Shown here piece by piece: positions 2,575-5,943 of a stretch of DNA of 64,000 nt. The stretch's first letter is position 1. Every line of letters starts with the position of its first letter. The DNA lies in assembly GCA_023954475.1 (NCBI GenBank), contig JAMLHW010000009.1, positions 62,001 to 126,000 of the forward strand, read 5' to 3'. This DNA comes from Anaerolineae bacterium. Its GTDB lineage: Bacteria; Chloroflexota; Anaerolineae; Promineifilales; Promineifilaceae. The translations under genes were made by a program, and so were the position numbers. Under the pieces are notes generated by a model. It was not told the origin of the DNA, ran no database searches, and saw only the letters and a program-made list of their open reading frames with translations.

Positions 2575-3903
2575 TCATTCACTAACTATTGTGATTGATT
2601 TGATGCGATCACCATCGCCGGCATTGGGATTATCCGGATCGCGTGGTGCAATTGCTTGCACAACATCGAGTCCATCCACAATTCGGCCGAAAATCGTATA
2701 ACCACCATCGAGCGACATCAACGACTGATCGCCATCGGCCAACGTAATGTACCACTGACTGCCACTCGTATCCGGCCCACTGTTTGCCATCGCCACCATG
2801 CCGGCTGTGTCGTGACTCAGTTCCGGATCGATTTCATTTGGCAGCATGTAGCCGGGTCCGCCACGCCCTGTTGCGCTCGGATCACCCGTCTGGGCGACAA
2901 AACCGGGAATGACGCGATGGAACATGACGTCATCAAACCATCCGGCTTCCGCCAGAAATACAAAGCTGTTCACTGTCTGTGGCGCTGAGGACGGCAGCAG
3001 TTCAATCGTGAATGTCGCGCCATTCTCCATTTCTACAATGGCCTGGTAACTGGCATCGACATCAATCGACATCGGCGGAGCCGCATCATATTGTCGTGCT
3101 TCCAGATCGGCTAACGCGATTTGCTGATCGATGTAGTTTTCCCAGATGTCCTGGCTCGGTATACTGCCAACGGGAAAACCGTCGACGATAGCGGAAGGCG
3201 TTCCGGGCAATTGCAGATTGACTGCTTCCTGGTAACTATTCTGTATGTAGTCATCGTGAATGCCGTCGTTCATTTCGGCCGAAAACTGATCACTATCCAA
3301 CCCCAATTCTACAGCCAGTTCGACAAAATAATCCTGTGCAGCTGATGCAGCCAAGCCAGACCATTCACGCTGGCGCTCAAATAACAAGTCATGATAAGGC
3401 CAAAATGCGTCCTGGGTGGCAGCAGCCTCAGATGCGGCAGCAGCGGCGCGAGCATTGGCGTGACTGTCAAGCGGAAAATGACGATAGACGATGCGTAGGT
3501 CATTGGGATAAGCCTCTACCAGAGACTCGAGCAGCGGTGCAAACGCTGCACAACCCGGTCATTGAAAGTCGCCGTATTCGATTATCTCGACTATCGGTTC
3601 TTCTGCCCCTTTGAAATGATCAGTCGCACGCAGCACGGCGGCCTCTTCAAACGTGGTCGCCGGAAACGCTACAGCATCGTCTGATGCAGGCTGTTCTATT
3701 TCCTCGCCAACTTCCGCTGCCGTCGTATCGGCCGATTCAGATACAGCCGTATCTTCACTGTCTTCGCTGTCTGTCGCTGGAGCAGCCGCCTGGTCGACTA
3801 CCGCCGTTGCCTCTGTCACCGTTTCGGCCGAATCAGGCTCCGCAGGCGCACAAGCTCCCAGTAACATCAGCAGGCAAATCAGCAAAAGCCAAACTCGTTT
3901 CAT
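2575..3903 (-). CDS. Secreted DsbA-like thiol oxidoreductase fused to cyclophilin PPIase, probable selenoprotein
   Basis: The reading frame from ATG 3903 is interrupted only by TGA at 3559-3561, and protein similarity continues unbroken across it. Read through, it gives 442 residues: lipobox LLGAC near residue 20, an acidic Ser/Thr/Glu linker, a thioredoxin-fold DsbA/DsbG-like domain (about 85-260, with EYGDFQ-TGA-PGCAAF and the cis-Pro GTPSAIVDG), and a cyclophilin domain (about 265-442; FHRVIPGFVAQTGDP, SGSQWYI, YTIFGRIVDG). Residue 115, the nucleophilic first position of CxxC, is the TGA, so I read it as selenocysteine (UPGC). A GGU-loop hairpin follows 38 nt downstream. TGA is an ordinary stop in neighbouring genes, for example aroC. 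The protein probably folds exported proteins: disulfide exchange plus proline isomerisation. The alternative is a nonsense mutation or a base error. Confidence 0.75.
3511..3527 (-). promoter_or_regulatory. Candidate bacterial SECIS hairpin
   Basis: In the mRNA (minus strand) a 7-bp stem, AGUCUCU paired with AGAGGCU (one G-U pair), closes a GGU triloop at 3518-3520. Bacterial SECIS elements are stem-loops just 3' of the UGA, with a conserved G/GU in the apical loop bound by SelB. Here the loop starts 38 nt after the UGA, at or just past the usual upper spacing. A second hairpin (GCAGCG/CGCUGC) lies nearer but has no G at its loop start. Confidence 0.45.
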
Positions 3904-3971
3904 AAAGCCTCTCTTATAGACAGTCGCGGCTTCGTTTATCGGCCGCTCTGTCTTCTCAATTTGATGAGCGC

Positions 3972-4001: not shown

Positions 4002-4123
4002 ATCCTGACACGTAGATCTTCACATTGGCGTTAACCAGGCTGCTATGCGCCATCACGACTGACCCAGTCCAATCTGTATCCATCGATCATGCAGTTAGCG
4101 GCCACATTCAGGAAGGTACAACT

Positions 4124-5308
4124 ATGCTCAGGTTTCTGACCGCCGGTGAATCCCACGGGCCACAATTGACTGCCATTCTGGAAGGATTTCCCGCCGGACT
4201 AATTGTCGACAGGGATCGACTCAATCGCGATATGACACGTCGTCAAAAAGGGTACGGGTCGGGCGGTCGCATGAAAATCGAAAGCGACACCGTGCAGATT
4301 ACCAGCGGCATCATGGCCCACAAGACAACCGGCGGCCCAATCGCCATGCACATCGTCAATCGCGACTTCGACAAATGGAAAGATCGCGATATAACGCCCA
4401 TTACAATTCCGCGACCGGGTCACGCCGATTTGACCGGTGCGATCAAATACGGCTATGGAGAGTTGCGCCTGGCCCTGGAACGCGCGTCGGCGCGTGAGAC
4501 GGCGGCGCGGGTCGCAGTAGGTGCCTTGTGCAAGCAATTATTGGCGCACTTCGGCATTGAGATCGGCAGTTATGTGGTGTCTATTGGCCCTGTCATAGCA
4601 GAGATTGCCCCGGAAATGGCGTATGAACTGCGTTTTGCATCGGCCGAAACCAACGACTTGCGCTGCCCCGATCCCGTCGCAACCGAAGCCATGCGCAATC
4701 ACATCCGCGACATCATGCAGGCCAAAGATACCGCTGGTGGCATCTTTGAAATCATTGCCCTCAACCTGCCCCCCGGTCTCGGCAGCCACGTCCACTGGGA
4801 TCGCCGACTCAGCGCCCAAATCATGCAGCACATCGGCTCAATTCAGGCAATCAAAGGGGTCGAAATCGGCCGTGCATTTGCCAACACCACCCTGCCCGGT
4901 TCGCAAGTCCACGATGAAATGGTTCTCGATGACGACGGAAACACGCTGCGCCGCACAAGCAATCGCTCCGGCGGACTGGAGGGCGGCATCACCACAGGTG
5001 AACCGCTTGTCATTCGTGCCGCGATGAAACCGATCTCGACGGTACTCAACCCACGTCGTTCAGTCGATCTCGCCACAGGTGAAGACGCCCTCACCGTCTA
5101 TGAACGGTCAGATTTTTGCGCCGTACCACGTGCCGCCGTCGTGGGTGAAGCGATGTTGGCCATACCGCTGGCAAACAGCTTGCTGGAAAAACTGGGTGGC
5201 GACAGCATCGCCGAAATGGAACCGCGTTTTGCCGGGTTGTGCCGGGCACGGCTGGAAGATTTGCCGATGGACAATACGGCATGGCGCTTTGACTATCAGG
5301 ACGTGTGA
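4124..5308 (+). CDS. aroC: Chorismate synthase
   Basis: Converts 5-enolpyruvylshikimate-3-phosphate to chorismate with reduced FMN, the last common step of aromatic amino acid synthesis. The 394-residue protein starts MLRFLTAGESHG and contains the family signatures GESHG, RRQKGYGSGGRMKIE, RPGHADLTGAIKYGY, RASARETAARVAVGA and SNRSGGLEGGITTGEP, in the usual order and with normal length. I chose ATG 4124 rather than an upstream in-frame ATG at 4025 because homologues begin here and a GGAAGG ribosome site lies 8 nt upstream. The gene is divergent from the DsbA-cyclophilin gene. Chorismate feeds the trp operon 3 kb away. It carries one SAE-coding TCGGCCGA. Confidence 0.95.
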   Translation: MLRFLTAGESHGPQLTAILEGFPAGLIVDRDRLNRDMTRRQKGYGSGGRMKIESDTVQITSGIMAHKTTGGPIAMHIVNRDFDKWKDRDITPITIPRPGHADLTGAIKYGYGELRLALERASARETAARVAVGALCKQLLAHFGIEIGSYVVSIGPVIAEIAPEMAYELRFASAETNDLRCPDPVATEAMRNHIRDIMQAKDTAGGIFEIIALNLPPGLGSHVHWDRRLSAQIMQHIGSIQAIKGVEIGRAFANTTLPGSQVHDEMVLDDDGNTLRRTSNRSGGLEGGITTGEPLVIRAAMKPISTVLNPRRSVDLATGEDALTVYERSDFCAVPRAAVVGEAMLAIPLANSLLEKLGGDSIAEMEPRFAGLCRARLEDLPMDNTAWRFDYQDV

Positions 5309-5406: not shown

Positions 5407-5943
5407 TCAGGGCGTCAGTTGCAGTGAATTGACAATGCGATCCACGGTGTCATCGTAACGGTCGCCGTCGCCGGTGCTGACAAGCAATAAAGCAATCTGA
5501 TCGTCGTCGCGCACAATCAAGAACCGGAAAAGACCGCTCTGTCCCCCAATCGTGCCGCGCATGGTTGTCGTCGCCCCGTCATATGTGTTGATCGCCATCG
5601 GCCGAATCTCCTCCAGCACTTCCACGTCTGTCCCTACCGTAAACGCATCGACAAAAAGCTGCAGAAGCTGTTGCGAATCAGATAAACCTAGTTCAGACGT
5701 CGAGCCAGTTAAAAACGTAATGGCCGCACCATAGCGGACGTCTTCGTCCAATGTGCGCGGTGAATTGGCGACAGCCAACGCACCCGCCTCTTCACGCACA
5801 ATCCAGCTTTGCGGCACTTCAAAAGTGAGTCCGAAAACCTCGCTTTCGTAACCAATCCACGTTTCCGGCTCCGGTTGGCGTCCACATGCTGCCAACCCAA
5901 TTGCAACAGCCGCAACTATCAGCAAATACCTGATACGCTTCAT
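5407..5943 (-). CDS. Small lipoprotein, PsbP/DUF1795-like fold possible
   Basis: A 178-residue exported lipoprotein: basic N-terminus, hydrophobic core, and lipobox GLAAC at residues 17-21. The mature part begins with YESEVFGLTFEVPQSW followed by alternating beta and alpha segments and ends DDTVDRIVNSLQLTP. That pattern, a beta strand with FEVPxSW then a terminal helix IVNSL, is shared with PsbP-like and DUF1795 extracytoplasmic proteins whose roles are mostly unknown. The next gene upstream (6020-8056) has a comparable segment, FLYPPEWV...MDILDTIARSIVLTG, so the two may be related surface lipoproteins. A terminator separates them, so they are probably transcribed separately. Confidence 0.7.
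   Translation of the reverse strand: MKRIRYLLIVAAVAIGLAACGRQPEPETWIGYESEVFGLTFEVPQSWIVREEAGALAVANSPRTLDEDVRYGAAITFLTGSTSELGLSDSQQLLQLFVDAFTVGTDVEVLEEIRPMAINTYDGATTTMRGTIGGQSGLFRFLIVRDDDQIALLLVSTGDGDRYDDTVDRIVNSLQLTP

Follow-up and report, generated by a model that had tools for sequence, protein, structure and literature searches.

A 2026 review of prokaryotic selenoproteins includes DsbA-like UxxC proteins and DsbG-like UxxC proteins (NF041057), with no cyclophilin fusion among them (PMC13188914). The preliminary description of the gene reported here had called a selenocysteine-containing DsbA-cyclophilin lipoprotein unusual; in view of this review the claim holds only in part, as UxxC DsbA/DsbG-like selenoproteins are known; the fusion is absent from that list. 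The NF041057 family (Rcas_1661 family thioredoxin-like (seleno)lipoprotein, DsbG-like UxxC in PMC13188914) shares with our protein the lipoprotein character, the thioredoxin fold and a UxxC motif with Sec/Cys variation. However, the fusion protein scores only 100 bits against this model, which has a cut-off of 190 bits, and adds a C-terminal cyclophilin, while a true TGA-bearing member of the family is encoded elsewhere in the host genome. The DsbA-like UxxC selenoproteins (PF01323; PMC1794560, PMC13188914) have the same type of domain with Sec first in the motif, but none is listed as having a cyclophilin attached. The bacterial cyclophilins PpiA and PpiB have in common with it the domain and the core residues FHRV, GF and AQ, whereas the cyclophilin here is joined to a redox domain and, judging from the lipobox, would be membrane-tethered. 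The bacterial SECIS (bSECIS) model (PMC13188914) resembles the structure found here in its short stem, small loop, G at position 1 or 2, and location in coding sequence just 3' of the UGA. In contrast to that model, the loop is 38 nt past the UGA, another covarying hairpin intervenes, and other orthologues have the loop at +17 or +23. The open-access literature was searched for a report of a cyclophilin-DsbA selenoprotein or of Rcas_1661, and none was found.

The gene and its predicted product

The window, that is, the whole 64,000-nucleotide stretch of DNA analysed, carries the gene on its minus strand; the strand was absent from the preliminary description. The features of the gene are as follows.

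2575..3903, minus strand: whole gene, Sec-containing DsbA-cyclophilin lipoprotein, predicted, 442 aa (TGA=U translation, Pfam, relatives)
3908..3915, minus strand: candidate ribosome-binding site AAGAGAGG (read directly from the sequence)
3850..3903, minus strand: predicted signal peptide and lipobox LGAC with lipidation Cys18 (alignment)
3625..3849, minus strand: acidic/Thr/Ala low-complexity linker, residues 19-93 (variable in alignment)
3127..3624, minus strand: DsbA-like thioredoxin-fold domain, residues 94-259 (Pfam, solved DsbA, model)
3559..3561, minus strand: in-frame TGA, residue 115, first position of UPGC (translation, homologue codons)
3550..3552, minus strand: resolving Cys118 of UxxC (invariant in 31 relatives)
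3196..3198, minus strand: Pro236 of GTPS, at the cis-Pro position of thioredoxin folds (invariant in 31 relatives)
2596..3033, minus strand: cyclophilin-type peptidyl-prolyl isomerase domain, residues 291-436, with FHRVIPGFVAQTGDP (PF00160, Foldseek)

The start ATG is at 3903 and the terminal stop is an ordinary TGA at 2577-2575. With the internal TGA read as U, 3903..2575 gives MKRVWLLLICLLMLLGACAPA...VEIIEYGDFQ-U-PGCAAFAPLLESLVEAYP...SITIVSE. Under table 11 the gene is broken into two ORFs, one of 174 aa and one of 270 aa that starts at a TTG, and this split is probably how automatic annotation would show it. The sequence AAGAGAGG, 4 nt 5' of the ATG, is a probable ribosome-binding site. The N-terminus has the signal peptide and lipobox Cys of a bacterial lipoprotein, and lipidation is predicted; Cys18 is invariant in 31 aligned relatives, and the lipobox is seen in the full-length relatives listed. 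Linker residues 22-57 have low confidence in the structure model.

The identity of the protein and the position of the TGA at the first CxxC residue, both proposed earlier from the sequence, are borne out by these comparisons, and homology does run through the TGA in the same frame on both sides, with the cyclophilin following. The Pfam models Thioredoxin_4 (E=7e-22) and DSBA (E=3e-15) span the TGA in a single frame, the DSBA/Thioredoxin_4 scores being 78.8 and 56.9 bits, above the gathering score. The solved DsbA 4pwo matches at E=3e-14, with U115 aligned to the first Cys of its CxxC. The Pfam scores, the UxxC site and the proline at the cis-Pro position point to membership of the DsbA superfamily; by analogy with the family, Pro236 would be in the cis state. 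Likewise, a Pro_isomerase match above the gathering score (PF00160, E=2.1e-36, 126 bits) and the catalytic Arg330 argue for a cyclophilin. In the alignment, Arg330 and Phe335 are kept at 90% or more and Gln338 is invariant. In a structure model built with Cys in place of Sec, two domains are folded at high confidence, with pLDDT mostly above 90 in the DsbA-like domain, and the linker is disordered. Foldseek matches cyclophilins at E of about 1e-14; its top rows cover essentially the cyclophilin half and did not recover the DsbA half, and therefore the assignment of the latter rests on Pfam and sequence.

Selenocysteine machinery and homologues

The host genome is a 5.12-Mb draft in 26 contigs, about 98% complete. 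The preliminary description had treated absence of selA, selB, selC and selD as fatal to its reading; all four were found (SelA 546 bits, SelB 354 bits, SelD 370 bits, tRNA-Sec 63 bits with an ARAGORN call of tRNA-SeC), a full set of Sec machinery genes. Elsewhere, selA was undetected in several incomplete genomes that carry the TGA form. The host SelD (C12:502257-503192; L018, 1483 onward) has its own in-frame TGA at the expected Sec site (SCAGUASKLGP) and is itself a candidate selenoprotein. A paralogous lipoprotein, at 266 bits above the NF041057 cut-off, has a TGA in YSDFLUGTC; it is encoded about 130 kb from the fusion gene on the same contig (L153, C26:195346-196140) and is a second selenolipoprotein candidate. 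The machinery, the TGA-bearing SelD and the TGA-bearing paralogue together make it very likely that the organism makes several selenoproteins. The hairpin described below was sought in the SelD gene and in the NF041057 paralogue, and no obvious copy was seen. Two other proteins, with open frames of 706 and 658 aa (C15:31565-33520 and C16:29283-31085; L154-L159), each contain a run of three NF041057-like thioredoxin domains in tandem and are free of internal stops.

About 41 full-length fusions were found in 56 genomes of the order, most with exactly one internal stop, a TGA. In the class as a whole, 129 of 396 genomes have a match at E<=1e-55, nearly all of them to the fusion and a few to the cyclophilin part only, and the lipobox and domain order are retained throughout. 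The nearest named relative, from a Promineifilum MAG, is 63% identical over residues 102-439 and has Cys at the site. The preliminary description had suggested a search for such Cys homologues, and they are common: the 113 distinct homologue loci comprise 64 with TGA at this codon, 44 with TGC or TGT, two each with Ser and Thr and one with Asp, so that 108 have either TGA or Cys at this one position. In 14 pairs of Sec genes, dN/dS 3' of the TGA is 0.02-0.24, indicating that this coding sequence is under strong purifying selection. In family f29 (L204, L217, L209, L210), Ser or Thr occupies the Sec/Cys site and a new Cys is found four residues upstream (YCDFQ); the active site may have moved in this family.

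Hairpins downstream of the TGA and Sec/Cys switching

Two hairpins follow the TGA in the window.

3531..3549, minus strand: hairpin 1, GCAGCG...CGCTGC, between the TGA and hairpin 2 (fold, covariation)
3510..3528, minus strand: hairpin 2, SECIS-like, GAGTCTCT-GGT-AGAGGCTT (fold, covariation)

The GGU-loop hairpin noticed earlier does exist, at 3528-3510, and has 8 bp including G-U pairs, one more than the 7 bp first given. Its core occurs once in the window and its loop starts 38 nt 3' of the TGA. The loop follows the bSECIS rule and the spacing in relatives is about 16-38 nt; the bacterial SECIS model places the loop 16-37 nt from the UGA (PMC13188914), and the +38 class is therefore just outside it.

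Folding was assessed over nucleotides 9-54 from the TGA against synonymous-codon shuffles that kept the protein fixed and used the codon usage of each gene. In the first set the mean z was -3.03 for Sec genes (34 loci, nearly all of the order) against -0.05 for Cys genes (20 loci), with a Mann-Whitney p of 8e-10 that is overstated because the sequences are related. The class-wide means are -2.5 and -0.3, and outside the order the energy excess of Sec genes is weaker (mean z -1.7). Hairpin 2 is 85.7% paired in the first Sec set versus 39% in Cys genes. Five of its 7 pairs have changed on both sides, and 0 of 500 shuffles were as well paired (here and below, shuffle counts overstate significance, as the loci share ancestry and are not independent). 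Hairpin 1 also covaries in relatives, in two registers.

Other lineages have other arrangements. A different hairpin, with a CGUGNN loop at +23, is carried by families f42 and f46 and by a few further Sec genes; strong covariation was seen for it, in 6 of 8 pairs (14 loci) with 0/500 shuffles. The genus g22 genomes L134, L135 and L137, and L166/L167, lack hairpin 2 and have hairpin 1 with a GG loop at about +17, and in L182, L184 and L189 both hairpins have SECIS-like loops. Some SECIS-like hairpin class is present in 61 of 64 Sec genes versus 5 of 49 others, a descriptive count made after the classes were known. A strict scan, which applied the loop rule and energy limit of the published model, required 6 bp or more in the stem and allowed a wider spacing of 14-46 nt, was positive in 45/64 Sec genes, 3/49 non-Sec genes and about 4% of codon shuffles; the hairpin of the window fails it solely through its G-U pairs and is included in the 61. 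The RNAalifold consensus over all Sec loci was poor (-0.86 kcal/mol), as the register of hairpin 1 shifts and the placement differs in some lineages; the helices were therefore counted separately. A closing stem, CCGGG/CCCGG, that would form a three-way junction is not claimed: it is weak, its register varies and control shuffles come close. In all Sec loci the +17, +23 and +38 placements share one codon phase at the start. We put at about even the chance that the SECIS hairpin has moved among +17, +23 and +38 within one orthologous selenoprotein, sometimes with two in tandem, and that in the lineage of the window a structured spacer hairpin lets the distal +38 element work.

The residue at the site has changed repeatedly. 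On a tree of 110 proteins, at least 9-11 changes between Sec and Cys were counted (the class tree has no fixed root, so either state could be the first), and in the window's own family all Cys forms are nested among Sec forms. In genus g2 the TGA is kept in two genomes and replaced by TGC/TGT in four, where a hairpin remnant, CTGGTAGA or CTGGTGGA, has broken pairing. All four of these Cys genomes still have selA, and the switch was thus not caused by loss of the machinery. L191 has a TGC codon yet keeps the hairpin (z -3.9) and is probably a recent Sec-to-Cys switch. SECIS remnants in Cys genes are a known phenomenon (PMC1794560). A Cys homologue without TGA, L057 (396-458), keeps a hairpin of the +23 class with the loop CGUGCU, which may be a relic or chance.

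Alternative explanations and proposed role

The selenoprotein reading first proposed from the sequence is supported by the Sec machinery, the Cys homologues and a covarying hairpin absent from them; judged on machinery, hairpin and evolution, the gene very likely reads its in-frame UGA as Sec. Since the window derives from a 26-contig draft genome, one might suspect a sequencing error at the TGA or a gene that has decayed into a pseudogene. Error is very unlikely because the TGA recurs in many independent assemblies, in 64 distinct homologues, which for the family as a whole disposes of the idea, and the low dN/dS past the TGA and the retention of the hairpin only alongside it speak against decay; the chance of either is negligible. 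Neither do we give any real weight to a code change or plain readthrough inserting an ordinary amino acid without selenium. The open frame across the TGA would fit this too, but TGA serves as the terminal stop both here and in the neighbouring genes at 4025-5308 and 5407-5943, homologues that lack the TGA almost always have Cys, the usual counterpart of Sec, and all four Sec genes are present. That the hairpins are by-products of codon usage rather than SECIS elements has a very small chance: the high G+C content of the region and the position of hairpin 2 a little past the usual distance would fit, but the structure vanishes in shuffles that keep each gene's own usage, is absent from Cys orthologues of similar protein sequence and shows compensatory changes in its stems.

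What the redox domain does is less certain. The same selenoprotein could be mainly a disulfide reductase or isomerase, or a scavenger of peroxide or sulfoxide, and not an oxidative folding catalyst. Selenocysteine has a low redox potential that suits reduction, and DsbG is a reductase. The nearest model, NF041057, is termed DsbG-like (PMC13188914). Against this, the fused prolyl isomerase suggests protein folding and the closest solved sequences are DsbA-type proteins; we regard the reductase, isomerase or scavenger role as a serious possibility, somewhat short of an even chance.

We are confident in the following reading as a whole, which takes the protein to be a genuine selenoprotein. The UGA would be decoded by SelB and Sec-tRNA-Sec, directed by the GGU-loop mRNA hairpin just 3' of it. 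After export, the protein would be lipidated on Cys18 and, as its lipobox suggests, retained on the membrane's outer face. Clients among the exported proteins may undergo thiol-disulfide exchange at the Sec115-Cys118 pair of the DsbA-like domain and proline isomerisation by the attached cyclophilin; the net result would be a tethered two-activity factor for folding or repair. Relatives have Cys in exchange for Sec, and the hairpin then decays.

Standard gene finders cut such genes at the TGA, and proteins of this kind are easily missed. With a redox domain and a prolyl isomerase sharing a single lipid anchor, the present one seems to represent a domain architecture new among bacterial selenoproteins. 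Specialists are likely to be drawn most to the fusion and to the proposed movement of the hairpin. Nature has in effect run an experiment in this family: Sec and Cys have been exchanged many times in organisms retaining selA, hairpins have decayed once the switch had occurred, and no fewer than three placements of the hairpin exist. How SECIS elements originate, move and die is therefore directly testable in it.
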